A stretch of DNA of 64,000 bases from Syntrophobotulus glycolicus DSM 8271 (GTDB taxonomy: Bacteria; Bacillota; Desulfitobacteriia; Desulfitobacteriales; Syntrophobotulaceae). Made by a program: the position numbers and the translations under genes. Below are positions 2,296-24,300 of the stretch, one piece after another. The number at the start of each line of letters is the position of its first letter. Position 1 is the first letter of the stretch. Under the pieces are notes generated by a model that was given only the letters and a program-made list of their open reading frames with translations, was not told where the DNA came from and searched no databases. The stretch spans positions 992,001 through 1,056,000 of the forward strand of contig NC_015172.1 in the NCBI RefSeq assembly GCF_000190635.1, written 5' to 3'.

Positions 2296-4092
2296 TCAAG
2301 ACACCTTGTTAGTCAGTGAGTTTTCACTGACTAATTCTGCATAATAGCCATTGTTTTGCAATAATTTGCTGTGATTGCCCATTTCGATGATTGTTCCGTT
2401 TTTCAAAACAATGATGTTGTCCGCGTTTTTAATGGTAGAGAGCCTATGGGCGATGATCAGGGTGGTTCTGTTTTTGACCGTGTTTTCAATTGCCTTTTGA
2501 ATCAGTTTTTCGGTATTGGTGTCAATATTGGCTGTTGCTTCATCTAGAATAAATATTCTGGGATTATGGGCGATTGCTCTGGCGAAGGAGATGAGTTGTC
2601 TCTGCCCTGCTGAGAGGGTTGCCCCCCTTTCCATAACAGGCTCTTCCATACCATTAGGAAAGGAATCAATGACCGAATCGCAGCAAGAGTATTGTATCGC
2701 TTCGGAGAGCGTTCTTTCGTCGATTGGATTGCCAAGTGTGATATTGCTTTTAATCGTTCCGGAGAATAAAAATACATCCTGCAAAACAACTGAAATATTT
2801 TTTCGCAAATCTCTTAAGTTAAGATGATTGAGATTAAAGCCATCGATAAGAATTTCACCCTTTTGAATTTTGTAAAAGCCGCTGATAAGACTGATGATCG
2901 TTGTTTTCCCGGAACCTGTTTCGCCAACAAAAGCGACACTCTGACCCGGGCTTATTTTAAAGCTGACATCTTTTAATATCCAGTTTTCGTTATCATAGGA
3001 GAACCAGACATTTTTAAATTCAATATCTCCTTTTATTTCATCCATTGGGATTCCGGAATCTAAATCTTCCAAAATGTCTTTCCGGTTCAGCAAATCAAAT
3101 ATTCTTTCTGTTGAGACGAGGGCAGATTGAATGCTGGTATATCTTTCAGAAAGGTCTGCAATGGGGTTGAAGAACTGTTTGACATAAGTGGTAAAGGCAT
3201 AAAGAAGACCGATTTGGATATGGTGATTGGAAATTTGGCCCATGCCGTACCAGATCAGGATGGCGACAGAAAGGCTTTGAAAAACCTCTGAGGCCGGCCG
3301 CAAAAAACTATTAAGCCTGACTTGGATCATTGTGGACTGAAAATATTCTTGATTCAGTTTTTTAAATTCCTGTTCTTTTTCTTTTTCCGCATTAAATATT
3401 TGAATGATCTTCATACCGGAAATATTCTCAGCCATGAAGCTGTTTATTTTTCCGATAATATGCTTTACCGTAAAAAAGTTTCTTCGCACTTTGTTCTTGA
3501 TTACAGTGACGAGAGCGGCCATGGGGGGGATTACGGCAAGGGCGACCAGAGCCAGTTCCAGGTTTAAATGTATCATGGCATATAAAATACCGGTAAGTAA
3601 AAAGATGTCGTTGAAAAGGTTCATTAATACATCGGTATACATATCGCTGATTTCTGAAATATCATTTGTAGCTCGTGTGATCAGTCTCCCGGAAGAGGTT
3701 TTGTCCAAATAATGCAGCGGGAGCAGTTGGATGGTTTGAAAGACGCGTTCCCGCAAAGCTTTGATCATTTGCTGGCCGGCTGCGTTGATCACATTCACCT
3801 GAATGTAACCGAACAGGCTTCCGGTTAAAGAAACGAGTAAATATATTATTCCGATTGACGTAAGGGAATAGAAACCGGTCTGTGCTTTTTGACCAATGAA
3901 CAAATCATCAATAACAAACTTGAGGATAATCGGCTTATAGATCACGGCTGTGTTGACGATCACAACACAAACGCAGGCCAGTAAGAGCTTGCTTTTTTGA
4001 GGGGAGGAAATTTTTAGCAGTTCTCTAAGGCTATTGACACTCCCGGCAGTGTTCGGTATGCTTCTCGCTTTGTTCCGCATAAATTTCATCAT
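2296..4092 (-). CDS. ABC exporter, fused permease-ATPase, second half of heterodimer
   Basis: A 598-residue type IV (B-type) ABC half-transporter: six membrane helices over about residues 38-330, then an ATPase domain. Walker A is GETGSGKTT, the signature is LSAGQRQ, and Walker B ends FILDEATANID with a normal catalytic Glu. The start ATG at 4092 has AGGGAGGG upstream and overlaps the preceding half-transporter by 62 bases. With its partner it should form an inner-membrane heterodimer of the LmrCD/BmrCD/TM287-288 type that exports drugs, lipids or peptides. The altered signature (Ala for the first Gly) complements the altered Walker B of the partner, as expected if one ATP site is degenerate. 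Substrate unknown. Confidence 0.9.
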   Translation of the reverse strand: MMKFMRNKARSIPNTAGSVNSLRELLKISSPQKSKLLLACVCVVIVNTAVIYKPIILKFVIDDLFIGQKAQTGFYSLTSIGIIYLLVSLTGSLFGYIQVNVINAAGQQMIKALRERVFQTIQLLPLHYLDKTSSGRLITRATNDISEISDMYTDVLMNLFNDIFLLTGILYAMIHLNLELALVALAVIPPMAALVTVIKNKVRRNFFTVKHIIGKINSFMAENISGMKIIQIFNAEKEKEQEFKKLNQEYFQSTMIQVRLNSFLRPASEVFQSLSVAILIWYGMGQISNHHIQIGLLYAFTTYVKQFFNPIADLSERYTSIQSALVSTERIFDLLNRKDILEDLDSGIPMDEIKGDIEFKNVWFSYDNENWILKDVSFKISPGQSVAFVGETGSGKTTIISLISGFYKIQKGEILIDGFNLNHLNLRDLRKNISVVLQDVFLFSGTIKSNITLGNPIDERTLSEAIQYSCCDSVIDSFPNGMEEPVMERGATLSAGQRQLISFARAIAHNPRIFILDEATANIDTNTEKLIQKAIENTVKNRTTLIIAHRLSTIKNADNIIVLKNGTIIEMGNHSKLLQNNGYYAELVSENSLTNKVS

Positions 4093-5803
4093 ACAGCCCT
4101 CCCTTCTCGATCAGTTCCTGATGCGTGCCGCGTTCATAGATCTTGCCATTGTGCAGCAAGACGATTTCATCGCAATCAGAGACCGCTGAAATTCGGTGAG
4201 AAATGATGAGCGTTGTTTTTTCTTTTCTGTAGGTTCTGAAATTGTTCAGGATATGAGTTTCTGTGACCGAATCGACAGCAGAAAGAGCATCATCGAGGAT
4301 TAATATGGAAGAATTTTTGATGACAGCTCTTGCGATGGAGACACGTTGTTTCTGCCCTCCGGAAAGATTCACACCGCGTTCTCCGAGTATTGTGTCAAAA
4401 CCGGAAGGGAAGTTCGCGATGTTTTCGTATATGCTGCTATACTTTGTTGCCGCCTCTATCTCATCGTCAGAATAGATATTTTTAAAGGACATAATATTGT
4501 CTTTAATACTGGCCGAAAATAAAAAGGTATCCTGAGGGACCAGGCTGATGCTGTTTCTGATTGATTCCAGAGAATATTCATTAATGTCGATGTTATCCAG
4601 ATAAAGCTGCCCCGGACCGACATTGTAAAGTTTGAGAAGAAGGTTGGTAATGGTCGTTTTTCCGGAACCTGTTTTCCCGATGACTCCGATGGTTTTGCCT
4701 TTTTCGATTTTGAGGTTTAAGTTTTCAAGCGCAGGTTTTTTCATGCCGGGGTAAGAAAAAGTAAGATTTTTAAATTCAATGGTTCCTTCGATGTTTCCCT
4801 GAATGGCAGCTTCACTGTCAAAAATACTCGGCGGAATACGGAAAATTTCTTCGAGTCTCTTTAAAGAAGCTACTCCCCGTTGGAAAAAGTTTATTACGCG
4901 TCCGATTGAAACAATGGGCGTCATGATCATGGCGAGGTAAGTGTTGAAGGCAACAAAATTTCCTACGGAGATCTGCCCGCTTAACACCATATGGCCCCCG
5001 AAGACAAGGCTCAGAACAAAGCTGAGACTGAAACATCCTTCAATAATCGGAGTAAGCAGAGATGAGGTTTTTACCATTTTTATATTTGCATCCAACATTT
5101 TGCTGCTAAGAACCTGAAATTTGTCAATTTCCTGGTCCTCCTGCACATAAGCTTTTACAACGCGTATACCATAAATATTTTCCTGTATCCTGTCTGATAT
5201 TTCACCGAAGAGGTCTTGGACTGTTCCGAAGCGCAGCCGGATCTTTTTACCGATGAGAATGATCAGGAAAATGACGATTGGTATGGGGGTTATGGTCAAA
5301 AGAGTTAAACGGAAGTCAACCGAAGTCAGCATGAAGTAGATCGAAGAGGCGCAGATGACGATTCCGTTTATGGATTGAGCAGCAGCCGGTCCCAGAGACA
5401 TTCGAACCGCTAACACATCATTGATGGCATAAGCAAGCAAATCTCCTGTTTTACGTTTGGTATAAAATTCAGGAGATAAGGTTTGAAAGTGTTTATATAG
5501 ATCTTCCCGCAGCGTGCATTCAAATTTCCGGGCATTCCCGATAATGAACATTCTCCAAATATAGGTAAAGAGAAACGTGAAAAGGGAAATCAGAAGCATC
5601 AAACCGATTTCCCAAAGAATGCGATTTCTGTCGTAAGCTTCGTCTTTTAATAAATCGATTGTATTGCCCAATATTTTGGGGAAAAGGGTCTGAATGGAAG
5701 AAGCCAAAAACATAAAAGTTAGTCCGGTTAGATAAGTGATTTTATTTTCCGATACGAAGTTCAGCAAAATGTTATTTTTCAAGTTTTTCACCTGCTGAGT
5801 CAT
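4031..5803 (-). CDS. ABC exporter, fused permease-ATPase, first half of heterodimer
   Basis: A 590-residue B-type ABC half-transporter: six membrane helices (about residues 20-315) followed by an ATPase domain with Walker A GKTGSGKTT, canonical signature LSGGQKQR and Walker B LILDDALSAVD. The residue after the Walker B Asp is Asp rather than the catalytic Glu, the hallmark of the degenerate site in heterodimeric exporters. The ATG at 5803 overlaps the TGA of the LacI-type regulator (ATGA), so translation is coupled. The C-terminal end is rich in Glu, His and Cys (HTEHCRECQ), which is unusual and could bind metal; that is speculation. The pair is probably controlled by the upstream regulator. 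Confidence 0.9.
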   Translation of the reverse strand: MTQQVKNLKNNILLNFVSENKITYLTGLTFMFLASSIQTLFPKILGNTIDLLKDEAYDRNRILWEIGLMLLISLFTFLFTYIWRMFIIGNARKFECTLREDLYKHFQTLSPEFYTKRKTGDLLAYAINDVLAVRMSLGPAAAQSINGIVICASSIYFMLTSVDFRLTLLTITPIPIVIFLIILIGKKIRLRFGTVQDLFGEISDRIQENIYGIRVVKAYVQEDQEIDKFQVLSSKMLDANIKMVKTSSLLTPIIEGCFSLSFVLSLVFGGHMVLSGQISVGNFVAFNTYLAMIMTPIVSIGRVINFFQRGVASLKRLEEIFRIPPSIFDSEAAIQGNIEGTIEFKNLTFSYPGMKKPALENLNLKIEKGKTIGVIGKTGSGKTTITNLLLKLYNVGPGQLYLDNIDINEYSLESIRNSISLVPQDTFLFSASIKDNIMSFKNIYSDDEIEAATKYSSIYENIANFPSGFDTILGERGVNLSGGQKQRVSIARAVIKNSSILILDDALSAVDSVTETHILNNFRTYRKEKTTLIISHRISAVSDCDEIVLLHNGKIYERGTHQELIEKGGLYDEIYAEQSEKHTEHCRECQ

Positions 5804-6795
5804 GATCTAAGGCTTTTTACCGACTCTCTTTCTATTAAGCTGCTTAAAATTGCAATGTTTTCATATGGTTTATTGGGATTGGTTATTCTTTTCAACAATG
5901 TCTCAACGACAGCTTGGCAGGCATACTCAAGGTTGAGATCCAAAGTCGTTAATGTGGGGGTAGAAAGGCTTGAGATATCTGTATTCCCGCTGCCGATAAC
6001 CGAGACATCTCCGGGAACTTTTATTTTTTGGGAAGTTAGAAACTTCATTAATTCAACCGCCTTGATATCATCTTCGCAAATAAATGCGGAAGGAAGATTC
6101 GCGGTACGGATTAATTCGATAAGGGATGAGGAATATTCTGCTTCGGATGGGATAAAATATTCATTTTTGGAGGGGAGTTTATAATCTTCTAAAGCAGTAG
6201 TAATGCCCAAAATGCTTTCTTTATTTCTAATAAATCTGCTGTTGCCGATAAATCCGATTTTGGTATGTCCTTTCTTAATTAAAAGTTCACACAGCTTGTA
6301 GCCCGCGTTCACAAAGTTAAAGCGAATACAATCACAATCAACTGAGGGATAATATCCTGTGAAGAAGACAAGATTATCTATTTTTCCTTGAATAAAAGAT
6401 AAGTACTTCAAAGTGAAACGGCCAATTAAAATGGCCCCGTCAAACTGAATCCCCTTAGACAATTTATAGGGCAGGGTTAGCTGCTTCTGGTTGTCGTTGT
6501 CTACAAATTCTACACTATAATCGGAATTGGTGTTCTGCAAAAATTTTTCCACTCCTTGAACCATGGAGCTAAAGTTGCTGTTGTCTTCCTTATAAGGTTT
6601 TTGGTGAAGGACTAAAATATTAAACTGATCAGCTTTTTTGCTTTTCTCATAGCCCAGTTCTTTGGCTTTTTCAATTATCTTATTTTTTAATTCTTCTCCG
6701 ACACCGGTTTGACCTGAAAGCGCTCTGCTGACTGAAACCGAAGAGACGCTTAAAGCAGCGGCGATGTCATTAATGGTGACTTTGTTGTTCTTCAA
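5800..6795 (-). CDS. LacI-family transcriptional regulator
   Basis: A 331-residue LacI/GalR-type regulator. The N-terminal helix-turn-helix is TINDIAAALSVSSVSVSRALS followed by the hinge, and the remaining 270 residues have the periplasmic-binding-protein-like core, including the ending typical of the family (GNTDISSLSTPTLTTLDLN). The start is TTG 6795 with GGAGG 8 bases upstream. It is the first gene of a three-gene operon with the ABC exporter (ATGA overlap), which is unusual company for a LacI-type protein. The gap to the divergent importer/dehydratase operon holds a 27-bp near-perfect palindrome that is a candidate operator, so it may govern both directions. The effector is not known; a sugar is usual for the family but not shown here. 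Confidence 0.9.
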   Translation of the reverse strand: MKNNKVTINDIAAALSVSSVSVSRALSGQTGVGEELKNKIIEKAKELGYEKSKKADQFNILVLHQKPYKEDNSNFSSMVQGVEKFLQNTNSDYSVEFVDNDNQKQLTLPYKLSKGIQFDGAILIGRFTLKYLSFIQGKIDNLVFFTGYYPSVDCDCIRFNFVNAGYKLCELLIKKGHTKIGFIGNSRFIRNKESILGITTALEDYKLPSKNEYFIPSEAEYSSSLIELIRTANLPSAFICEDDIKAVELMKFLTSQKIKVPGDVSVIGSGNTDISSLSTPTLTTLDLNLEYACQAVVETLLKRITNPNKPYENIAILSSLIERESVKSLRS

Positions 6796-6885
6796 AATAA
6801 TTCCTCCATATATCAGTTAATGATAGAATAAAAAAATAACGAAATAAAATAAAGAAATTAAGTAAGTATTTAAGTGTTTTAGGTA

Positions 6886-6912
6886 AATATGTGTTTAAAT
6901 TAAACGCATATT
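6886..6912. promoter_or_regulatory. candidate LacI-type operator palindrome
   Basis: Two 13-base arms (AATATGTGTTTAA and TTAAACGCATATT) around a single central base differ at one position only. It lies 38 bases before the -35 element of the divergent operon and about 90 bases upstream of the LacI-type gene, which fits an operator serving both. Confidence 0.55.
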
Positions 6913-6949
6913 TTTTATGAAAAATAAGTAAATTATATGAATAACAGTA

Positions 6950-6978
6950 TTGACATACAAGGGATTTAGTTATATGAT
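6950..6978 (+). promoter_or_regulatory. sigma-A promoter of importer/dehydratase operon
   Basis: TTGACA at 6950-6955, a 17-base spacer and TATGAT at 6973-6978. This is one of the best matches to the vegetative consensus in the window. It points at the operon beginning at 7170 and leaves a leader of about 185 bases. Confidence 0.75.
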
Positions 6979-7062
6979 TTCAAAAACATACTTAACACGT
7001 GGATATAATGTAGTATAGAAGATTTACACTTAATATTTTAATGCAATTTAAGTAATAATACA

Positions 7063-7146
7063 ATGTTTTTTAAGTTGACTCAAGCAATGGGAGATTTAAA
7101 TATTCCTTCTGAAGTTGCTCAGAATGATGTTTTAGGTCTCTTTTAA
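7063..7146 (+). CDS. possible 27-codon leader peptide
   Basis: An open frame from ATG 7063 to TAA 7146 encodes 27 residues (MFFKLTQAMGDLNIPSEVAQ, then NDVLGLF) and ends 24 bases before the ABC ATPase start. It sits inside the transcribed leader of the operon. No clear ribosome site is seen, so it may be chance. If real it would be a leader or small regulatory peptide, for which there is no direct evidence. Confidence 0.25.
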   Translation: MFFKLTQAMGDLNIPSEVAQNDVLGLF

Positions 7147-7169
7147 TTTTATGTTTGGGGGCGAAAGAT

Positions 7170-8036
7170 ATGGGATTGATCGAAAATCTTCGTTTAAGTA
7201 AGAAGAGTATGTTTAATCTAGGTGGGATAAGCGAACCGAAAACGGAAAAGCTCTCCGTGTCTGATTTAGGAATAAGTTTTGAAAATACAAAGACCGGAGC
7301 AATTACTGATGCGGTAGAGCAAGTAAGCATTAATATTAATCCCGGCGAATTTGTTACAATAGTCGGTTTAAGCGGCTGCGGAAAATCTTCGTTTCTCAAT
7401 GCCATTGCCGGTCTTGTTAAACCAAGCAGAGGAACAATCAAATTAGGCGATAAAACCATAGACGGCCCGGGCCAGGACAGGACAGTTGTCTTCCAAAAAG
7501 CTTCTTTATTGCCCTGGAGAAATGTCATTCGAAATATTACCTACGGACTGGAATTAAGAGGGATGAAATATAAAGATGCCCTAAACCATGCTGAAGAATA
7601 TATTGAGATGGTCAATTTGAAAGGATACGAAAGCTTTTTCCCCTATCAGCTTTCCGGAGGGATGCAGCAGAGAGTAAATATAGCCAGAGCGCTTGTCTGT
7701 AAACCGGAAGTGCTTCTCTTAGACGAACCGTTTGCCGCGCTTGATGCAATAACCAGAGAAACAATGCAGAATGAACTGCTTTCACTATGGGAAAAAACGC
7801 GCAAGACGGTACTCATGGTTACTCATCAAATTGATGAAGCGGTACTGCTTTCAGACAGGGTAATTGTATTTTCCGCAAAGCCCGCAAGGATATTAGAAGA
7901 AATAAAGATTGATTTGCCAAGACCGCGGATTCCTGAAATAAGGGCGCATGTGGATTTTGATCTGCTTTCTACAAAAATTTGGAGTCTGATTCATACTTCG
8001 GCAAGAAAGAAAGTGGATGTAGAATATGAAATCTAA
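7170..8036 (+). CDS. ABC importer ATPase, SsuB/TauB/NrtD type
   Basis: A 288-residue nucleotide-binding subunit of the nitrate/sulfonate/taurine importer family. Walker A is GLSGCGKSS, the Q-loop region reads VVFQKASLLPW as in SsuB/TauB, the signature is LSGGMQQR, Walker B is VLLLDEPFAALD and the H-loop is VTHQIDEAV. About 40 extra residues precede the ATPase domain. ATG 7170 is preferred over an in-frame TTG at 7155; a G-rich stretch precedes it. It is the first gene of a seven-gene operon and overlaps the permease gene by 11 bases. It would energise uptake of a small anionic organic substrate that presumably feeds the iron-sulfur enzyme encoded downstream (inference). Confidence 0.9.
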   Translation: MGLIENLRLSKKSMFNLGGISEPKTEKLSVSDLGISFENTKTGAITDAVEQVSININPGEFVTIVGLSGCGKSSFLNAIAGLVKPSRGTIKLGDKTIDGPGQDRTVVFQKASLLPWRNVIRNITYGLELRGMKYKDALNHAEEYIEMVNLKGYESFFPYQLSGGMQQRVNIARALVCKPEVLLLDEPFAALDAITRETMQNELLSLWEKTRKTVLMVTHQIDEAVLLSDRVIVFSAKPARILEEIKIDLPRPRIPEIRAHVDFDLLSTKIWSLIHTSARKKVDVEYEI

Positions 8037-8829
8037 TAATCAGGCAGCAATGATCAAAAGACAAATGATTAATCTGACCCAGAGTATCGGTCTTGGCGGA
8101 GGTGTTATTCTGGTGCTTCTGATCACGTGGGAAGTTTCCAGTGCTTTGAACCTGGTTAATCCGATGTTCGCAAGCTCTCCGGCAAGAATATTTACCGCTT
8201 TAATAAAGCTTTTTAAAAACGGTGAAATTATTCCGCATATCGTTGAAAGCAGTAAGGTCTTCGCGATCGGATATCTGATGGCAGCGGTGACAGGTATTCC
8301 CGCCGGGATTGCGCTGGGCTGGTTTAAGAAAGCCGGACTTGCGTTTGGTCCGATGATTGCAGCGTTTTACACAACTCCGCGAATCGCGCTTATGCCTCTT
8401 TTCATTATCTGGTTTGGTTTGGGAGTCGGCTCCAAACTGGCTCTTGTTTTTCTGAGCGCAGTTTTTCCTCTGATTGTGAACATGCAAACAGCGGTATCCA
8501 ATTTAGATAAGGATTTCACGACAGTTGCCAAAGCATACGGAGCGAATCAGCGTCAGATTTTCTTTACAATTGCGCTGCCGGAGTCAGTTCCTTTTCTGAT
8601 CACAGGGCTGAGGCTGGCAACAGGCCGTGCGCTCTTGGGTGTGGTCGGGGCGGAAGTATTTGGCGGCGCTGAAGGTCTGGGGTATTTGATTCAATATGCC
8701 GGAGCGACATTTCAGGTGGATAAGGTATTTGTATGCGTGGTTATCATTGCCGCAGCCGGAATCATTATGGATCGATCACTTCTCGCCTTAAATAAACGGT
8801 TTAGTTTATGGAGAGGTAATGATCATTAA
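8026..8829 (+). CDS. ABC importer permease, SsuC/TauC/NrtB type
   Basis: A 267-residue inner-membrane permease with about six helices (first near residues 20-38). The cytoplasmic EAA loop that contacts the ATPase is seen as VAKAYGANQRQIFFTIALPES, matching the BPD_transp_1 family pattern for SsuC/TauC. It overlaps the ATPase gene by 11 bases. The binding protein of the set is not next to it but five genes along, at 12285, with three enzyme genes lodged between, which ties transport and enzyme together. Substrate not known. Confidence 0.9.
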   Translation: MKSNNQAAMIKRQMINLTQSIGLGGGVILVLLITWEVSSALNLVNPMFASSPARIFTALIKLFKNGEIIPHIVESSKVFAIGYLMAAVTGIPAGIALGWFKKAGLAFGPMIAAFYTTPRIALMPLFIIWFGLGVGSKLALVFLSAVFPLIVNMQTAVSNLDKDFTTVAKAYGANQRQIFFTIALPESVPFLITGLRLATGRALLGVVGAEVFGGAEGLGYLIQYAGATFQVDKVFVCVVIIAAAGIIMDRSLLALNKRFSLWRGNDH

Positions 8830-8887
8830 AATCATTCCGGGCGGATTTGGTTGAAAGATAAACAACGAAGAGAAAAGGAGATTGATT

Positions 8888-9688
8888 ATGATGTCAAGTG
8901 TGACAGCATTTGCAGGGGTGGATGTAGGCTCATTGGGAACAAAAGCAGTGATTCTTGTTGATGGTGAAATAGCGGGATCTACGATCATAAGAACCGGGAT
9001 AAACACGGAAGAAAACGGCAATAAGGGCCTTGACGAGGCACTCGCCAAGGCGGGGTTAAAAAGAGAAGATCTGAAATACGTGGTAGCTACAGGATATGGC
9101 AGAATTTCCGCACCATATGCCAATAAGACGGTAACCGAGATTACTTGTCATGCGAAGGGAGCTCATTACATTCATCCTCAGACGAAAACTATTATTGACA
9201 TGGGTGGACAGGATTGCAAGGCAATCAGGCTGGATGAAGACGGAAATGTTGTTGATTTTGCCATGAATGACAAATGCGCGGCCGGGACCGGCAGGTTTTT
9301 GGAAATTATGGCTAATGTTTTCAAAGTTCCTTTAGAAGAACTTGGTCCGCTGTCACTCAATGCAACAACCGTGTTGCCGGTAAGCAGCACTTGTACGGTT
9401 TTTGCCGAATCGGAAACGGTTTCGCTTCTGGCCAGAGGAGAAAAACCTGAAAACATTATAGTCGGTATTCATCACGCGATTGCCAATCGGGTCGGGGGAA
9501 TGTTCTCGAGAGTCGGGATTCAGAACGACGTGTTTTTCTCCGGCGGTGTGGCGAAAAATATTGGGATGAAGAAAGCGCTGGAGGAGGCGCTGAACGTGCA
9601 GATTGTAGAACCAGGCCAAGATCCGCAGCTGGCCGGCGCGATCGGGGCGGCTGTAATTGCTGAAAATTTATGGAAAAGGGGCAAATAG
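8888..9688 (+). CDS. 2-hydroxyacyl-CoA dehydratase-type activator ATPase (HgdC/BcrA-BadF family)
   Basis: A 266-residue ASKHA-fold ATPase of the BadF/BadG/BcrA/HgdC family. Such proteins are homodimers holding one [4Fe-4S] cluster and use ATP to inject a single electron into a partner enzyme. Seen here: phosphate-1 motif GVDVGSLGTKAV, IIDMGGQDCKAI, cluster-ligand Cys130 in NDKCAAGTGRFLE and Cys169 in PVSSTCTVFAESE, and the adenosine motif FSGGVAKN. Start ATG 8888 follows AAAGGAG by 7 bases (ATG 8891 is also possible). Only one activator gene is present, as in HgdC-type or YjiL-type systems and unlike benzoyl-CoA reductases, which have two. It should be oxygen-sensitive and cytosolic. Confidence 0.9.
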   Translation: MMSSVTAFAGVDVGSLGTKAVILVDGEIAGSTIIRTGINTEENGNKGLDEALAKAGLKREDLKYVVATGYGRISAPYANKTVTEITCHAKGAHYIHPQTKTIIDMGGQDCKAIRLDEDGNVVDFAMNDKCAAGTGRFLEIMANVFKVPLEELGPLSLNATTVLPVSSTCTVFAESETVSLLARGEKPENIIVGIHHAIANRVGGMFSRVGIQNDVFFSGGVAKNIGMKKALEEALNVQIVEPGQDPQLAGAIGAAVIAENLWKRGK

Positions 9689-9689
9689 T

Positions 9690-10862
9690 ATGACGTTAAA
9701 GTCAATCGAAATAATCAGAAAACGTCTGCAAGAAAGACCGGGCGAAATTGAACAGGCCAGAGAGAAAGGGCAAAAGGTGGTAGGATGGCAAGGATACAAC
9801 CTGCCGGAAGAACTCATTTATGCCTTGGGTCTTCTCCCGATAAGAATTGGCGCCGGCGGAGACGACAGGCTGGTTGAAATCGGAGCCAGGTACATTTCCA
9901 CCAAGAATTGTGTTTTTGTCCGTGAGACGGTGGGTCTTTTCGCAGAAAATAAGGACCCATATGTAAAAAATACCGATTTTCTGGCCTTTGACGCAACTTG
10001 CCTGCAAACATACAGAACGGCGGAAATCCTTCAATATTATTTTCAGAAAACGGTCGCGATACTGGGCGTGCCCAGAAACTTCTATTGGCCGGAAGCAAAG
10101 GTTTATTTTACCAAAGAAGTAGAGCATTTCGTGAAAAGATTGGAAGAGCTTTCCGGCAACCGGCTTGATGAGAAAAAACTTCAGGAAACGGTTGTCTTAT
10201 TTAACAAAATCAGAGAAGCAATTCTTAAAATCTATAACAACCAGGCAACCGAAGAAAGATTGATATCCTGGGAAGAAACCTATGATATGATCCAGGCGGG
10301 ATATTTCCTCGACAAAAAAGAATATCTTCTTCTTCTGGAACAGGTTCTGCGGGAGCTGGAAGAAGCAAAAGGGAAAGCGATCATTGCGGAAACGGATGAC
10401 CGGGCGAGAATTTTTGTATCAGGCAGTGTCATTCCGCCTGGAGATAAGAAGCTGATTAATATCATCAACGAAGTCGGAGGCAGAATTGTCGGTGAAGATC
10501 TCTGGTCGGGAATCATTCCCTATTTGGATGTTCATATTGAGGAGGATTCGATCCAGGGGATTGCTATCGCTTATATCAACCGGACACCGCACGGGGCCTT
10601 ACCGTATCTGGAGCTGGACACAGATAAAAGAATTAAAAGACTGAAGGAATTAATTGAAACGTACAAGGCTCAAGGTGTAATCTACCATACACTGCGCTAT
10701 TGCGACCCGTACACGTTTAAGGCCAAGGAAACAAAAGACGTGCTGGCGGCGGATCATATTCCTCTATTGGAGATTCACACCGAATACGCCGGATCAGATT
10801 ATGAAGCCATTAGAACAAGGGTTGAAGCCTTTGTGGAAATGATCAAAAATAAAAATTTATAG
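9690..10862 (+). CDS. 2-hydroxyacyl-CoA dehydratase family subunit (HgdB/COG1775-like), small
   Basis: A 390-residue member of the HgdB/BcrB/BcrC/FldC family. These subunits bind a [4Fe-4S] or double-cubane cluster through Cys residues and carry out difficult reductions or dehydrations after one-electron activation. The three Cys expected for cluster binding are visible: Cys74 (TKNCVFVRETVG), Cys104 (DATCLQTYRTAE) and Cys338 (LRYCDPYTFKAKE). The start ATG 9690 sits one base after the activator stop, with GGAAAAGGGG upstream. No CoA-transferase or acyl-CoA dehydrogenase gene is nearby, so the substrate may not be a CoA thioester; double-cubane proteins of the YjiM type are the alternative. Reaction not known. 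Confidence 0.85.
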   Translation: MTLKSIEIIRKRLQERPGEIEQAREKGQKVVGWQGYNLPEELIYALGLLPIRIGAGGDDRLVEIGARYISTKNCVFVRETVGLFAENKDPYVKNTDFLAFDATCLQTYRTAEILQYYFQKTVAILGVPRNFYWPEAKVYFTKEVEHFVKRLEELSGNRLDEKKLQETVVLFNKIREAILKIYNNQATEERLISWEETYDMIQAGYFLDKKEYLLLLEQVLRELEEAKGKAIIAETDDRARIFVSGSVIPPGDKKLINIINEVGGRIVGEDLWSGIIPYLDVHIEEDSIQGIAIAYINRTPHGALPYLELDTDKRIKRLKELIETYKAQGVIYHTLRYCDPYTFKAKETKDVLAADHIPLLEIHTEYAGSDYEAIRTRVEAFVEMIKNKNL

Positions 10863-10871
10863 GAGGCTTGT

Positions 10872-12263
10872 ATGAGTGATTTGAATAATCTATTTAAGTT
10901 TCCGGAGGAGCTAAAGGAAGACTTTTTGAAAACGGCAGATATTATTTACAGGGATGGTTCCAGAACAGCTCCGGAAGAAATCTGGCATTACTTAACGGAG
11001 ATAGGACCGGTCAAATATCCAAATCTTTATGACAACAGCCCTGAGTATGGGAGGAGATTCTCCGGTGACAATCTTCCGTACTCGCTGAAACACAATTATT
11101 TGCTGATGACCATGAATGACAGGATGACGAAAGCCAAGGAACAAGATGTTCCGGTGGTCTTTGTGCAGGGGGGACAAAGCGTCGATCCATACTATGCCGC
11201 GGGCGCAATTGCCCTGAGACCGGCCAGTACAGGAATATGGGCGCGAAGAAAAGAAGAAGGTCTTGATTTGAATCAAGATGCGGTCAGAAGTGCGGATGAC
11301 AAAGAAAAGGCTTATCGGGCAATTAGCTTTGAAGCCTGCAATACGGCTGGATATGAGCATATTCAGGAAGGTAATCTTCCGGTAGATCTGATAGCCCCAT
11401 ACTCCTGCCTGCGTTGCTCGGATGTTTCTTACGGGCTGGAAGCGCACAGGCACGGAAACAAAAAAAATGTGAAGCTCTTTCTGGCGGATTACCCACTGGA
11501 CCATCAAAAAGACAAGGAATGGGCAATTGAATATTTTGCGGCAAATATCAAAAGGCTGATTGAAACGATCGACGACCTCACCGGAAAAACAACAACAACC
11601 GAGGACCTGAGAAAAGAAATCAAGCTTCATAATGAAGGAAGAAAATTAGCCATTGAAATTGCGGAACTTTGGTGGAGCGCCCAAATACCGCCAACCAACG
11701 GGAAAGATAGAAGAGACCTTTTTCAGCTTGGGGGGATGGAACTGCATGGCGACCCTGAAGCGAGCCTGGGGCTTTTGCACGAGGCGAAGGCCAATATACA
11801 ATACAGGGTTGAGAATAAAATCAAAGGGGACGGTGTTGCCGATAATCCGGCCAGAATCTTTGTATGCGGATCCTGTGTCTTTCCGAATGAATATCAAACA
11901 GAAGCAGCCGGAGGAATTATCGTAGGAAATGACAACCATTGGAGTGATATTACGACTCTGGTCGAGGAAGAGGGAGATCCGTTCTATAATCTTTCTAAAG
12001 CAATCCTTTCTTATCCTTACGAGCAACCAATTAAAGAACGCGCCCAGTGGACAATAGAACAAATCAAAAAATCCAGGGCCGATGGCGTCGTATTTTTATA
12101 CAATTGGGGCTGCAACACCCAATCAGCTGTTGCCAGAGCACTGGTGGATGAAATAAAAAGCAATACAGGCCTGCCGACGTTAATTGTTGAACATGAGTTC
12201 GGAACAAAACAATCGGAGCAACTGCAAAATCGGATCAATGCATTTGTTGAAATGCTGGGATAA
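10872..12263 (+). CDS. 2-hydroxyacyl-CoA dehydratase family subunit (HgdB-like), large
   Basis: A 463-residue second HgdB-like subunit, longer than the usual 370-420. Candidate cluster ligands are Cys156 (FEACNTAG), Cys179 and Cys182 (YSCLRCSD), a later CGSC pair (IFVCGSCVFPNEYQ) and Cys in NWGCNTQS, so it carries more Cys than a standard subunit. The family feature ADYPLD appears near residue 205. The ribosome site AGGAGG precedes ATG 10872, 9 bases after the first subunit. The two subunits probably form an alpha-beta dimer re-charged by the activator. The extra Cys and length may mean a second or larger cluster; that is inference. Confidence 0.8.
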   Translation: MSDLNNLFKFPEELKEDFLKTADIIYRDGSRTAPEEIWHYLTEIGPVKYPNLYDNSPEYGRRFSGDNLPYSLKHNYLLMTMNDRMTKAKEQDVPVVFVQGGQSVDPYYAAGAIALRPASTGIWARRKEEGLDLNQDAVRSADDKEKAYRAISFEACNTAGYEHIQEGNLPVDLIAPYSCLRCSDVSYGLEAHRHGNKKNVKLFLADYPLDHQKDKEWAIEYFAANIKRLIETIDDLTGKTTTTEDLRKEIKLHNEGRKLAIEIAELWWSAQIPPTNGKDRRDLFQLGGMELHGDPEASLGLLHEAKANIQYRVENKIKGDGVADNPARIFVCGSCVFPNEYQTEAAGGIIVGNDNHWSDITTLVEEEGDPFYNLSKAILSYPYEQPIKERAQWTIEQIKKSRADGVVFLYNWGCNTQSAVARALVDEIKSNTGLPTLIVEHEFGTKQSEQLQNRINAFVEMLG

Positions 12264-12284
12264 AAATAATTTAAGGAGATGTTT

Positions 12285-13295
12285 ATGCTAATGAAGAAAA
12301 ATTTGTTGAATGGCACAGCCTTTTTCTTGGTCATTGCTTTATTTGTATTGACCATAACCGGTTGCGGCGGCAACGCGAAACAAGCGGTTTCCGGAAGTAA
12401 AGAGCCGGTAAAAATAAGGCTGGCAAACCTGGCCGTGGGGTTAAGCTCTGCCTATCTGGATTTGGGGGTTGAAAAAGGGATCTTTAAAAAGTATGGGATC
12501 GACCTCCAAATCGTTAATTTTCCAAAGGGAGGGGCGGAAGCCACTGCGGGGGTTGCCAGCGGACAGGTTGATATGGGTAATTACGGGACCCCGATATTGA
12601 CCGGAATATCCAAAGGACTGCCAATCAAAATTGTTGCTTCCCCGCCGGTGAAAGGGAATCCTTTTGTACTGGTTGGAACAAATGATACGAAAACGGTTGC
12701 TGACCTAAAGGGGAAAAGTGTGGCAACCGGCGCTCTTGGCGGGGGCAATCACCAATCCTTTCTGAAAGTTCTTGAGGGAAGCGGAGTGAAGGACAGTGAG
12801 GTTAAGGTTGTCGCTACCGGGGGAACCGACGCTTTCATGATCCTGAAGTCCGGGAAAGTTGCTGCGGTCATGACGAACGAACCAAGTGTATCCCAGATCG
12901 AAGCGGACGGATCGGGTCATGTCTTGGCAAAAGCCGAAGACTTTTACGGCAAATATCAACATAGCTTTATTTTTGCGACCGATGATTTTATTCAAAACCA
13001 TCCGGAAAGCATAACGGATTTCTTAAAAGCGAGCAGAGAGTCTTATGAGTATTGCAAAAACAATTTTGAAGAGCTTGTGGCCAAGGGAAAAACCCTTGTA
13101 GGGCTGGATGAAAGCATTGTCAGAGAATATTATAAAAATGATATTGCAAAATGGGATCTTAGTTTCCAGGTTGATGCCGAAGGAACAGAGAACGCAGTCA
13201 AGATTTTAAAAGGCTTAAAAGAAATTGATGAGAGCGCTGTTTTTGACAAAGATAAATGGATCAATCTCAATTTTCTAAATGACACAGGCAAGTAA
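12285..13295 (+). CDS. substrate-binding lipoprotein, SsuA/TauA/NMT1-like
   Basis: A 336-residue lipoprotein: signal sequence of about 25 residues with lipobox TITGC, then an NMT1/SsuA-type periplasmic-binding fold (RLANLAVGLSSAYLDLGVEK, KGIFKKYGIDLQIVNF, GQVDMGNYG). ATG 12285 is preferred because AAGGAG ends 6 bases before it; an ATG at 12279 overlaps the ribosome site. It would be anchored outside the membrane and deliver substrate to the importer at 7170-8829. Its position after the enzyme genes suggests that its ligand is the substrate, precursor or cofactor of the iron-sulfur enzyme. The pocket cannot be typed by eye. Confidence 0.9.
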   Translation: MLMKKNLLNGTAFFLVIALFVLTITGCGGNAKQAVSGSKEPVKIRLANLAVGLSSAYLDLGVEKGIFKKYGIDLQIVNFPKGGAEATAGVASGQVDMGNYGTPILTGISKGLPIKIVASPPVKGNPFVLVGTNDTKTVADLKGKSVATGALGGGNHQSFLKVLEGSGVKDSEVKVVATGGTDAFMILKSGKVAAVMTNEPSVSQIEADGSGHVLAKAEDFYGKYQHSFIFATDDFIQNHPESITDFLKASRESYEYCKNNFEELVAKGKTLVGLDESIVREYYKNDIAKWDLSFQVDAEGTENAVKILKGLKEIDESAVFDKDKWINLNFLNDTGK

Positions 13296-13328
13296 TCTTT
13301 AGATTATTTTGGCAACTCATTCACCGTG

Positions 13329-13388
13329 CTGCAAGCTTCAGAGATTTAAGTACATATCTTTCGTTGTTTGCAGCCGGTTTCTTTTTGT
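13329..13388 (+). terminator. weak hairpin with T-run after binding-protein gene
   Basis: GCTGCAA and TTGCAGC flank a long loop and are followed by CGGTTTCTTTTT. The loop is much longer than usual, so this may be a partial terminator or chance. Confidence 0.3.
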
Positions 13389-13435
13389 ATCACGAAGAAG
13401 GAAGATTTGAAGGATTAAGCATTTAAGCAGAGGAA

Positions 13436-14668
13436 ATGGGCGGATTACTTATGGATCATTTATGCGGTAAGGTTCTTATCAATAGGTTTCCGGCTCTTCG
13501 TCATAAGAACTTTAGAATATTTTTAATCGGCCAAAGTATTTCTCTGATCGGAACCTGGATGCAAAGGGCGGCACAGCAGTGGGTAATCTATGAACTGACA
13601 AAATCGGCATTCATCGTAGGTTTGGTTGGTGTTTTTCAATTTACGCCGTTACTGCTGTTCTCACTTTTTGCAGGGGTGTTCGCCGACAGATTTCCCAAAA
13701 AAAGGGTTCTTTTATTGACCCAAACCATTCAAATGCTGCAAGCGTTTACCCTTGCCGTGCTTTTTTGGACAGGAAGGATTCAGTACTGGCATATCCTAAT
13801 ATTGGCGGGGGTTTTGGGATTAGCGCATACCTTTGATATGCCGACACGGCAATCATTTTTCATCGAACTGGTCGGAAAAGAAGCCCTGGGTTGTGCGATC
13901 GGAATGAATTCATCTATTGTGAATATTGCCAGAATCATTGGACCGGCTTTGGGGGGGCTTCTATTAATGTATTTTGGCGGTACGTTCTGCTTCTTTTTCA
14001 ATGCCTTTAGCTTTATTGCAGTGCTGATTAGTCTGATGAAGATTCAATCATATCATGTGAATATCAGGAAAAAAGGAAAAAACGTTTTTCACGAAATCAA
14101 AGACGGTTTAAAATACATTTACGCAAAAGAAATTTTATTCCAGGCGATATTATCCATGTTGATTGTCGGAACCATTGCGATGAACAGCGATGTAATTATT
14201 CCGGTTTTTGCAAAAGAGGTGTTAAAACAACAGGCCGGCGGCTATAGTTTATTATTGTCGTCAATGGGGGTAGGTTCCCTGATTGGATCATTAATTTTTG
14301 CCGGAAGAAGCAAGATCACGTTTGAAAAGCAAAATCTTATGAAGACTTCGCTTTTGTTGAGTGTATTCTTAGTCTTTACAGGTTTATTGCAGAATTACTA
14401 TTTGGTTATTTTCAGTTTAGCCGGAGTCGGTTTGTTCAGCATGATATTTATGGCAACCGTCAATTCCACCATTCAGTTGAATTCCTCCGACGAGTACAGG
14501 GGACGGGCGATGGGTGTTTATTCTATGGTATTTACGGGAACAACCCCTATCGGGAATTTATTCTCCGGAATAGTAACACAAAAATTTGGAGCAAATGCAA
14601 GCTTTATTACCTGTGGAGGATTATGCACATTATTGGTATTGCTTCTTTATCTGGTTAAGAAACAATAG
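13436..14668 (+). CDS. MFS transporter (MFS_3/enterobactin-exporter-like)
   Basis: A 410-residue major facilitator of about 12 helices. It opens LRHKNFRIFLIGQSISLIGTWMQ, the usual start of the MFS_3 family (export of siderophores, macrolides and other metabolites), and has the loop-2/3 motif GVFADRFPKKRVL. The start is uncertain: ATG 13436 has AGAGG almost touching it, and ATG 13451 has GGGCGG 7 bases upstream. It lies 140 bases after the binding protein with a weak hairpin between, so it may be the last gene of the operon or separate. If linked, it could export the product of the enzyme; no direct evidence. Confidence 0.85.
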   Translation: MGGLLMDHLCGKVLINRFPALRHKNFRIFLIGQSISLIGTWMQRAAQQWVIYELTKSAFIVGLVGVFQFTPLLLFSLFAGVFADRFPKKRVLLLTQTIQMLQAFTLAVLFWTGRIQYWHILILAGVLGLAHTFDMPTRQSFFIELVGKEALGCAIGMNSSIVNIARIIGPALGGLLLMYFGGTFCFFFNAFSFIAVLISLMKIQSYHVNIRKKGKNVFHEIKDGLKYIYAKEILFQAILSMLIVGTIAMNSDVIIPVFAKEVLKQQAGGYSLLLSSMGVGSLIGSLIFAGRSKITFEKQNLMKTSLLLSVFLVFTGLLQNYYLVIFSLAGVGLFSMIFMATVNSTIQLNSSDEYRGRAMGVYSMVFTGTTPIGNLFSGIVTQKFGANASFITCGGLCTLLVLLLYLVKKQ

Positions 14669-20984: not shown

Positions 20985-21314
20985 ATGTACGATACGGAAA
21001 CGCGGGTAGCAATGGTAGCGCAGCGCGTGAACGTGCTGCACAGGAAACGGGAAAAACGCCTGAGCGAGGCGCTGTCCGCACTGTGTCTGATGCTGACAGG
21101 CAGCCTTGTAGGGGCAATCGGCGCATTGGGCGGCCGGGGGCAAGGCAGTGTGACCGGATTGTACGGCGCAACGATGCTGTTTGAGGACGCGGGCGGCTAT
21201 GTGCTGGTGGGCGTGATCGCCTTTGCCGCGGCGGTAGCGATTACGGTGCTGTGCATCCACTATCGGGAAAAGAGAAAGAAAATATGCGATAAGACGGAGG
21301 ATGATCAGAAATGA
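20985..21314 (+). CDS. small two-helix membrane protein, paralogue of 19201-19554
   Basis: A 109-residue protein with the same plan as the one at 19201: basic N-terminal segment (VAQRVNVLHRKREKRLSEAL), a helix, a short exposed stretch containing GLYGATMLFEDAGG, a second helix (YVLVGVIAFAAAVAITVLC) and a charged tail. It is coupled to the giant surface protein by a 4-base overlap (ATGA). The pair of paralogues, one next to the sigma factor and one next to the surface protein, suggests matching roles such as sensor and target, or two anti-sigma-like tethers. No known family is recognised. Confidence 0.75.
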   Translation: MYDTETRVAMVAQRVNVLHRKREKRLSEALSALCLMLTGSLVGAIGALGGRGQGSVTGLYGATMLFEDAGGYVLVGVIAFAAAVAITVLCIHYREKRKKICDKTEDDQK

Positions 21315-24300
21315 AAAAAAGAATGTTAAGCCTGCTGCTGGCGGTGGCAATGGTTGTGACCCTGCTGCCGGTTACGGCGTGGGCGGAGGAAGTTTCTCCG
21401 GTACAGGAAAGCGGCGAGGTCTCTGCGCCTGTCATTGGAGAGAGTATTGCAACCGACAGCAATGCCGGTAAACATACAGTTTCGGAGAATACGCTGTCCG
21501 TCAGCGTAAGCAGCGTGACCGACAGCGGAGCGGAGCTTGCCTTTACCAGCAGCGTGGACGGAACTGTATCCTATCTGGTGCAGAAGTCCGACGAGGCGGC
21601 GCCGGACGAAGCGGCTGTTCTGGCAGGAAAAACCGTTGCGGCAACCACGGGAGCCGCCATAACCGCTGAGCTGACAGGGCTGACGGCGGAAACGGACTAC
21701 ACCGTTTACGCTCTGCTGGAAAGCGGCAGCGGGAGCCGTTCAGCCCTCGCTTCGGCACAGTTTACAACAGAGGCGGCAACGCCCCTGCTGTTAAGGGCTG
21801 GCCGGGCAGCGGGTACTACTCCTTATGTGGATGAGCACGGAGTGGAACACACCGAGACCGCGACAGAAATTTCGAGCGCAACCACAGGGCTGAATGACAC
21901 CACAACCGGTGGCTGGTATGTGGTCAGTGGCAACGTGTCCACGGGAACCCTTACCGTAAACGGCGACGTCAAGCTGATTCTGGCAGACGGTGCATCCCTG
22001 ACAGTTACGGGAAGCGGAACAAAGGCGGGAGTCCTCGTCAATGAAGGGAATAGCTTGACAATTTACGGCCAGGTAATGGGCACAGGCAGACTGGATGCTA
22101 TGGGCGGCGACAGCGGGGCAGGTATTGGTACAGACAAGGACGGTGCTTTAGCTGCCGGTATCGTTAATATCTATGGCGGTACAGTCATTGCCAGGAGCGG
22201 GGGAGGGGTTTACGGCAGTGCAGGCATCGGAGGAGGCCACGACAGCAGCGGCGGTACAGTCAACATTTATGGAGGAAGTGTCACAGCCACGGGAGAAAAA
22301 GGTGGTGCAGGTATTGGAGGAGGCAACCTAGGCAGCGGCGGCAGCGTCAATATCTATGGGGGGACGGTCACAGCCACGGGAGGAACTTACGGCGCTGGGA
22401 TTGGCGGGGGCTACTTAGGCAACAGTGGCATGTATGGCAACGGCTGTACGGTCAATATCTATGGGGGAACAGTCAAAGCCACGGGAGGCTCCACCGGTGC
22501 GGGGATTGGCGGGGGCTACCACGGCAATGGCGGCAGCGTCAATATCCATGGAGGGTGGGTCGAAGCTACGGGAGGAACTTACGGCGCTGGGATTGGCGCC
22601 GGCCAAGGCGGCAGTGGCGACATCGTCAAGATCACCGGCGGCACGGTTACAGCCGCAGGGGGATCCGCCAGTGTAGATATCGGCGGCACAAATGGCACCA
22701 TCACCATCACCGGCGGCACGGTGACCGCCTCCAGATTTTCCTCCGCTGATACTGCTGCGCCAACCATTCAGAGTGTTTCCCCCAATGACGCCGGCGCAGC
22801 TATCAGCGGGAATCTTGCGATTGCCTTCAGCGAAGCAATGATGCCGTCCGTGGGGATAATCTCCTTAGACAACGGTGTTGGAGCATTGACCGGAGGCAGT
22901 TGGGACACAGACAGGAAGGTGTATACAGTTCCTTATTCCAGCCTTACCCGCAGTACGGAATATATCGTCTCAATCTCCGGCTTTTACGATGTAGCGGGCA
23001 ATGCGATGACAGCCGACGCTTCGCATCGCTTTACAACAGAACCAGAGCCTGACACGACAAATCCTACCGTGGCAAGCGTTGCCCCAAGCGGAGCGAATGC
23101 CCCCATCAGCGGGAATATGACCGTTACCTTCAGTGAGGCCATGAACACCTCGGCAGGCACCGTGTCCCTTGACGGGGGAATTACTTCTCTGACGGGCGGC
23201 AGTTGGACTGTAGGCAGTACAGTCTACACGGTGCCTTACGCACTGCTCGGCTACAGTACGGAATATACTCTGTCGATCTCCGGGTTTGAGGATACGGCGG
23301 GGAATCCCATGACAGCCGACAATTCCCATAGCTTTACAACAATAACTGCGCCTGACACGACCAGTCCCACCGTGATAAATGTCACGCCGAGCGGTGTGGA
23401 TACTGCCATCGGCGGAAATATTGTGATCACGTTCAGCGAAGCCATGAATACCTCGGCGGGCACCGTGTCCCTTGACGGAGGTGCAACTTCTCTGGCGGGC
23501 GGCAGTTGGACGGTGGGCGGTACCGTTTACACAGCGCCTTACTCACTGCTCGGCTACAGCACGGCATATACTCTGTCGATCTCCGGGTTTGAGGATGTGG
23601 CGAGCAATCCCATGACGGCCAACACTTCCCATAGCTTTACAACCATAGCGGAGCCTGACACGACCAGACCCACCGTAGTAAGTGTCACTCCCAATGGTAC
23701 AAATACTGCCATCAGGGGAAATATTATCATCACGTTCAGCGAAGCAATGAACACCTCGGCAGGCACCGTGTCCCTTGACGGGGGAATTACTTCTCTGACG
23801 GGCGGCAGTTGGACGGTAGGCAATACCGTCTACACGGTGCCGTACTCACTGCTCGGCTACAGCACGGCATATACTCTGTCGATCTCCGGGTTTGAGGATA
23901 TGGCAGGCAATACCATGACGGCCGACATTTCCCATAGCTTTACAACAATAACTGCGCCTGACACGACCAGTCCCACCGTGATAAATGTCACGCCGAGAGG
24001 TGTGGATACTGCCATCGGCGGAAATATTGTGATCACGTTCAGCGAATCCATGAACACCTCGGCGGGCACCGTGTCCCTTGACGGGGGAATTACTTCTCTG
24101 ATGGGCGGCAGTTGGACGGTGGGCAGTACCGTCTACACAGTGCCATACGCACGGCTCGGCTACAGTATGGAATATACCCTGTCGATCTCCGGGTTTGAGG
24201 ATACGGCGGGGAATCCCATGACTGCGGATACCTCACATCGCTTTACCACTGTGGCAGAGCCGCGGACTCCTTCCGTTTCAGCCAATACACTGACTGTAAA

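Follow-up and report, generated by a model that had tools for sequence, protein, structure and literature searches.

A candidate oxygen-independent organosulfur-scavenging operon built around an importer-linked HgdB/DCCP-like heterodimer in Syntrophobotulus glycolicus

Syntrophobotulus glycolicus FlGlyR, a strict anaerobe whose sole growth substrates are glyoxylate and, in syntrophy, glycolate (PMC3156405), carries within a 64,000-nt stretch of NC_015172.1 (the window) an operon that encodes an ABC importer, an ATP-dependent activase and two diverged subunits related to HgdB and DCCP. Judged by its sequence, and within the curated libraries and literature that we searched, this two-subunit system is an undescribed branch of the superfamily that includes the benzoyl-coenzyme A (CoA) reductases (BCR), the 2-hydroxyacyl-CoA dehydratases (HAD) and DCCP. 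On balance we lean towards reading the operon as an oxygen-independent module for organosulfur desulfurisation and scavenging, because the neighbours of its relatives (loci designated L013, L014 and so on, L016 being that of Ruminiclostridium hungatei) are sulfur genes and because the reductases Isr and Mar can serve as functional analogues; sulfonates as the specific substrate class are a weaker proposal. More tentatively, and with rather more doubt than confidence, the operon may represent a class of CoA-independent, ATP-driven C-S reductases on the HgdB/DCCP scaffold, unrelated to nitrogenase, by which anaerobes as far apart as Bacillota, Chlorobi and an archaeon obtain sulfur from sulfonates or related organosulfur, and in which a 3-Cys/4-Cys heterodimer has interchangeable large subunits for its range of substrates.

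A Pfam scan returned ABC_tran, BPD_transp_1, BcrAD_BadFG, HGD-D, HGD-D, NMT1 and MFS_3, all in one orientation, bearing out the order ATPase, permease, activator, subunit, subunit, binding protein and MFS given in the initial annotation. Neither subunit reaches the cut-off of a curated NCBIfam family. For DCCP (NF040772, cut-off 350 bits) subunit 1 scores 210.6 and subunit 2 scores 90.9; the BcrC and BzdN equivalogs of class I BCR give 104.4 vs 421 and 76.6 vs 454 bits, and HadB and HadC, of HAD, give 34.4 vs 750 and 96.0 vs 700 bits. AlphaFold2 models of the two subunits (predicted local distance difference test scores of 85.2 and 90.7) both match DCCP, BCR and HAD structures, with a template-modelling (TM) score of 0.86 for subunit 1 against the DCCP fold, and Z 27-33 across residues 65-463 of subunit 2 against the BCR/HAD/DCCP fold. 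This fold, together with a BadF/HgdC-type activase that has two invariant cluster cysteines, places the system in the superfamily. The structural alignment of subunit 2 to HAD, BCR and DCCP starts near residue 47-69, leaving an N-terminal extra of ~60-70 residues, in good agreement with an earlier estimate that the large subunit is about 60 residues longer than usual.

The shared fold and activase family would also fit a conventional HAD or BCR whose CoA genes lie elsewhere in the genome. We regard this as very improbable, as the scores are far under every HAD and BCR cut-off, no CoA gene is seen adjoining, and the 3 + 4 cysteine pattern is unlike the published HAD and BCR patterns; assignment to a known pathway of either kind was rejected on the low curated scores. 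No CoA-transferase, CoA-ligase or acyl-CoA dehydrogenase was seen among the open reading frames of window positions 1-24000, in line with the view of the operon as an ATP-driven HgdB/C-type reductase free of CoA-activation genes, and none of these three kinds of gene was found among the identified neighbours in relatives, where the Pfam scan covered only some neighbours. Nor is there, among the relatives examined, a homologue already assigned to a known 2-hydroxyacyl-CoA or benzoyl-CoA pathway, or a CoA-transferase just outside the operon. Our literature search found no paper linking the HgdB/DCCP scaffold to sulfonates, which, with the curated families unreached, agrees with the first impression that the combination has no assigned pathway.

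The cysteines set the two subunits apart. Exactly three are invariant in subunit 1 (C85, C115 and C349, in 35/35 members), and four in subunit 2 (C156, C182, C335 and C414, in 53/53). In a profile alignment, the sites of subunit 1 that match the distal ligands of BzdN and DCCP are occupied by other residues, one of them an invariant Trp (W283); in BzdO, too, a Trp takes up the room left by the lost sub-cluster (PMC11971306). The extra cysteines that the initial annotation had pointed out in the CLRC and CGSC motifs of subunit 2 are present, but only C182 and C335 are conserved family-wide, while C179 occurs in 25/53 and C332 in 30/53 members. The six cysteines per subunit that go with the DCCP [8Fe-9S] cluster are thus found in subunit 2 of some members only, one of which is S. 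glycolicus itself. A double cubane, which had been suggested on account of these cysteines, is not supported as a family trait: subunit 1 is without the distal sub-cluster ligands and two of the six subunit 2 cysteines are not conserved. The S. glycolicus subunit 2 could perhaps hold a larger cluster, although the family would have no need of one; the pattern of conservation makes it likely that subunit 1 holds a [4Fe-4S] cluster with an open site, and subunit 2 a four-Cys site. Ser239 of BzdN lines a channel toward its cluster (PMC11971306), and from the sequence alignment C335 of subunit 2 may correspond to that position. Since subunit 1 is nearest to DCCP in both sequence and fold, one may also consider a reductase of the DCCP type that acts on acetylene, azide or molecules resembling hydrazine. 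We find this more improbable still than a conventional HAD or BCR: subunit 1 has lost all the distal ligands of the double cubane, the system is a heterodimer whereas DCCP is a homodimer, and an importer with its own substrate-binding protein (SBP) is present.

The activase scores 283.6 bits for CoA_E_activ, above the NCBIfam cut-off of 125.4, and both cysteines of its cluster pair (Cys132 and Cys171) are invariant across 19 sequences. The operon's two subunits are the only HGD-D proteins in the S. glycolicus genome, and because the remaining BcrAD-type domains sit within two ~1,430-residue proteins elsewhere, the activase, which stands alone, probably serves this operon only.

With regard to the importer, the SBP scores 119.6 bits for SsuA_fam (cut-off 163.5) and 55.4 for the taurine family (cut-off 304) in NCBIfam; as far as its sequence tells, the importer is of the same superfamily as SsuABC/TauABC and falls outside the curated SsuA and TauA families. 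In this broader sense (a Pfam NMT1 match and an SsuA-like superfamily match) the idea that an SsuA/TauA-type importer feeds the reductase finds support. Other importers of the NMT1/SsuA-like kind take up nitrate, phthalate, cyanate or thiamin precursors, which fits an alternative in which a CoA-free, ATP-driven reductase acts on some other small anion, such as a nitrogenous or aromatic acid, as a carbon or nitrogen source or for detoxification, the sulfur neighbours being incidental. The sub-threshold SBP scores, the FAD_binding_2 oxidoreductases beside several relatives and the local LacI control are all compatible with it. Nevertheless we consider it unlikely, given that sulfur-gene neighbourhoods occur independently in Bacillota, an archaeal metagenome-assembled genome (MAG), Chlorobi and Thiodictyon.

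These neighbourhoods are what argue for an organosulfur role. Upstream of the module L014 has cystathionine lyase/synthase-type genes, CysE and an Rrf2 regulator that NCBIfam matches best to CymR (149 bits vs a cut-off of 195), and downstream a flavin adenine dinucleotide (FAD) oxidoreductase, an S-box and a MetA above cut-off; CysK was also read by eye. L022/L060 contain a nitrite/sulfite reductase, two TusA and DsrE, with IscS, MetX and MetY recognised by sequence inspection, and L066 (Chlorobi) has a MetY above the OAH_OAS_sulfhy cut-off. Sulfonates, aromatics and amines had all been offered as substrates; the neighbour survey favours organosulfur compounds over the latter two. A flavocytochrome c-like FAD_binding_2 protein recurs beside the module (L013:14132-15633, L014:11598-13106, L017:12421-13929 and L022:4531-6135) and is not found there in S. 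glycolicus; a FAD oxidoreductase is strongly induced by isethionate in Rhodobacter capsulatus (PMC11423573). Elsewhere in the S. glycolicus genome a sulfite-reductase-like gene adjoins TusA and MetY, and a sulfate importer, CysH, CysD and CysN genes were read by eye, so that the organism could assimilate sulfite. A further cluster (L124:5688-13716; genome 2,569,687-2,577,715), as read by eye, joins a second sulfite-reductase-like gene to one for an enzyme of the glycyl-radical type, two activase-like genes, a LacI and ThiF/JAMM-type genes; it might be a separate sulfonate lyase route.

In Thiodictyon and in five Chlorobi islands, nitrogenase-like H, D and K genes lie beside the module, with a variant radical S-adenosylmethionine (SAM) gene in Thiodictyon and in one Chlorobi island. 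These neighbours bear the Isr signature, namely one conserved Cys in D (7/7), three in K (6/6) and the NifH-type Cys pair in H (6/6). According to its authors the single-Cys D signature separates IsrD from all other NifD homologues, and IsrBHDK together with an SsuCAB importer enables cells to grow when isethionate is their only source of sulfur (PMC11423573). The closest solved relative of the neighbouring HDK is methylthio-alkane reductase (9FMG), also a C-S reductase. Co-location with nitrogenase-like HDK and radical SAM genes could alternatively mean that the HgdB/C-like complex, instead of breaking the C-S bond itself, acts on another metalloenzyme such as an Isr-like reductase, either as its ATP-driven activator or as its metallocluster donor. 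This appears improbable, as most loci, including that of the window, have no adjoining nitrogenase-like gene, S. glycolicus yielded only a distant lone NflH, and the operon has its own importer and SBP. The S. glycolicus NifH-like gene, in the region L122:9768-16023 (genome 2,841,767-2,848,022), is 62% identical to the Thiodictyon Isr-like H. Near it are apparent genes for MetNIQ, for a radical SAM protein like NifB and for an enzyme of the cystathionine-synthase type; no D or K partner was recognised within the 20 kb covered.

Within the Chlorobiaceae, an Isr-like D gene is found in 9/13 genomes with subunit 2 vs 14/73 without it (Fisher p=6e-4), and the closest Isr-like D subclade in 9/13 vs 1/73 (p=1.5e-8), p-values that overstate the evidence, as the Chlorobi genomes share ancestry. 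This is one of several points that weigh against an organosulfur role. The Isr-like gene is absent from 4/13 Chlorobiaceae that bear subunit 2; no sulfur gene lies within the examined flanks of L013, L015, L016, L023 or the window locus; and the SBP scores under both the SsuA and the TauA curated cut-offs. Control by LacI is local, with no operator site shared with S. glycolicus sulfur genes, and Rfam finds no S-box in the window. Lastly, the ABC exporters and FAD oxidoreductases of relatives suggest something beyond simple desulfonation.

The family is rare. Subunit 2 occurs in 1/398 genomes sampled over the phylum, and the order's other 73 genomes have no orthologue, four of them giving partial matches of 26-31%. 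It occurs in 1/58 genomes of the order of R. hungatei (none in the other 57), in 1/194 of the family of Thiodictyon (none in the other 193 sampled) and in 13/86 Chlorobiaceae. Among 84,980 species genomes, loci at 53-79% identity numbered 15, and they belong to Bacillota, Pseudomonadota, Chlorobi, Treponema and, in one case, a Bathyarchaeota MAG; plasmid-borne relatives were limited to weak partial matches. Such a rare and patchy distribution over distant phyla suggests horizontal transfer, while MAG binning errors could account for single cases. Importer, activase, subunit 1, subunit 2 and SBP are conserved across phyla, and many loci have two or more subunit 2 genes per subunit 1 gene, as if subunit 2 sets the substrate. 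A more distant activase-subunit 1-subunit 2 set on a Chlorobi contig (L062:1330-4784; 54, 40 and 30% identical) suggests, from its sequence, a wider family. In the Chlorobi islands (L061, L066, L093-L112) several HgdB-like pairs occur together with Isr-like genes, exporter pairs and a large number of importers of the NMT1 type; a porin is present as well, and so is a small radical SAM gene associated with TatD (TIGR04038). These look like multi-substrate organosulfur islands.

The module extends beyond the operon. A divergent LacI gene and an ABC exporter pair, overlooked in the initial annotation, belong to it; the regulatory region between LacI and operon (6796-7169; Table 1) was overlooked as well. 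LacI is 54-66% identical at the same place in L013, L016 and L023; the whole LacI-exporter arm accompanies the system in R. hungatei (66-70% identity), LacI stands without exporters in L013 and L023, and exporter pairs also occur in the Chlorobi and Thiodictyon islands. The inverted repeat ACTTAA-N14-TTAAGT, a candidate operator, has a single copy in the window, where 0.06 are expected, and two in the whole genome; L013 and L023 also have it between LacI and the operon. Because it occurs just twice in the genome, LacI is taken as a local regulator, and a global regulon was rejected. Further downstream, a leader element consisting of TGACT/C, an A-rich spacer, GAG and a terminator hairpin whose stem bases are changed yet paired precedes the operon in five Bacillota (the window, L013:6157-6227, L014, L015:6193-6252 and L023 ~3966-4045), in L014 in tandem (5296-5361 and 5403-5462). 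It is a candidate new attenuator or riboswitch. Rfam gave no family at the gathering threshold in the window, with no S-box or T-box before the operon, and weak sub-threshold matches to the L014 leader were put down to chance.

Table 1. Features of the module in the window
Feature	Position	Strand	Basis or remark
ABC exporter half, 598 aa	2296..4092	-	69.5% identity to R. hungatei L016:3743-5542, same arrangement
ABC exporter half, 590 aa	4031..5803	-	67.5% identity to R. hungatei L016:5505-7235
LacI-family regulator	5800..6795	-	Peripla_BP_3 + LacI (Pfam)
Sigma-70-like promoter, TTGACA-N17-TATGAT	6950..6978	+	read straight from sequence
Candidate LacI operator, inverted repeat	7028..7053	.	motif search
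Candidate leader attenuator, TGACT...GAG element and terminator hairpin with U-run	7076..7144	+	fold -19.1 kcal/mol
ABC importer ATPase, SsuB/TauB type	7170..8036	+	ABC_tran; best NCBIfam SaoA/TauB, under cut-offs
ABC importer permease, SsuC/TauC type	8026..8829	+	BPD_transp_1
Activase, BadF/HgdC-type ATPase, [4Fe-4S] Cys132 + Cys171 (8882 frame)	8888..9688	+	BcrAD_BadFG 228 bits
Subunit 1, HGD-D/DCCP-like, invariant C85, C115, C349 (9657 frame)	9690..10862	+	HGD-D 279 bits
Subunit 2, long HGD-D-like, invariant C156, C182, C335, C414	10872..12263	+	HGD-D match confined to C-terminal part
SsuA/TauA-like lipoprotein SBP	12279..13295	+	NMT1
MFS_3 transporter	13436..14668	+	MFS_3 Pfam match

The ATPase and subunit 1 probably start at ATG 7170 and ATG 9690 rather than at the mechanically listed upstream TTGs. 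The MFS_3 gene, possibly for product efflux, is the weakest member of the operon, as the gene lists of most relatives do not show it at this place. Further along the window (21311-26167) lies a gene for a repeat protein of 1618 aa that looks secreted and combines repeated Ig-like units with SLH-like and choline-binding-like repeats.

The genes, their folds and cysteine pattern, the conserved architecture, the sulfur genes nearby and the regulatory sites are computational results. From the neighbours, and from Isr and Mar as functional analogues, we infer which class of substrate is used, what reaction and product follow, and what the exporters and the attenuator do. In the mechanism that we propose, the SsuABC-type importer would bring in an organosulfur substrate, most likely a sulfonate, and the activase, a [4Fe-4S] ATPase dimer, would hydrolyse ATP to drive very-low-potential electrons into the subunit 1-subunit 2 heterodimer. 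The heterodimer would reduce the free, not CoA-bound, substrate and break its C-S bond, releasing sulfite (or a thiol or sulfide) to a sulfite reductase and homocysteine synthase route. The substrate range would depend on variants of subunit 2, of which a locus often has at least two alongside a single subunit 1, the ABC exporters would remove the carbon remnant, and the local LacI repressor and leader attenuator would control the operon. The usual enzymes that free sulfonate sulfur, SsuD and TauD, require oxygen. Only three oxygen-independent desulfonating enzymes, Xsc, IslAB and Isr, were counted in a 2024 paper (PMC11423573). If the proposal is true, it would add a further, non-nitrogenase route to sulfonates without oxygen, helping to account for the ways in which strict anaerobes draw on abundant organosulfur for their sulfur, and the HgdB/DCCP superfamily would gain a role without CoA esters. 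A direct test is possible in cultured S. glycolicus, R. hungatei and Paenibacillus forsythiae.

Among known systems, DCCP (PDB 6ENO/7YYL; NF040772) is the nearest in sequence to subunit 1 (23% identity over ~395 columns, TM 0.86) and likewise has an ATP-dependent activase partner, whereas the operon has an importer-linked heterodimer of two diverged subunits, of which subunit 1 keeps only three cluster cysteines. The class I BCR BzdNO/MbdON and the dehydratase HadBC share the HGD-D heterodimer, the BadF/HgdC-type activase and the fold; unlike them, the operon has no nearby CoA genes, scores under the curated cut-offs, has 3 + 4 invariant cysteines, and its subunit 2 has a long N-terminal extension. 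IsrBHDK with SsuCAB of R. capsulatus (PMC11423573) resembles the operon in pairing an SsuABC-type importer with an ATP-driven reductase that acts on free substrate and gives anaerobic access to sulfonate sulfur, as presumed for the operon, and Isr-like genes adjoin the operon's relatives in Chlorobi and Thiodictyon; yet the Isr scaffold is nitrogenase-like (NifHDK) and not homologous to the HgdB/DCCP scaffold. Finally, MarHDK (PMC12552129) offers a parallel in ATP-dependent reductive C-S cleavage, known for Mar and proposed here for the operon, although Mar has a nitrogenase scaffold, a complex cluster and methyl thioether substrates.

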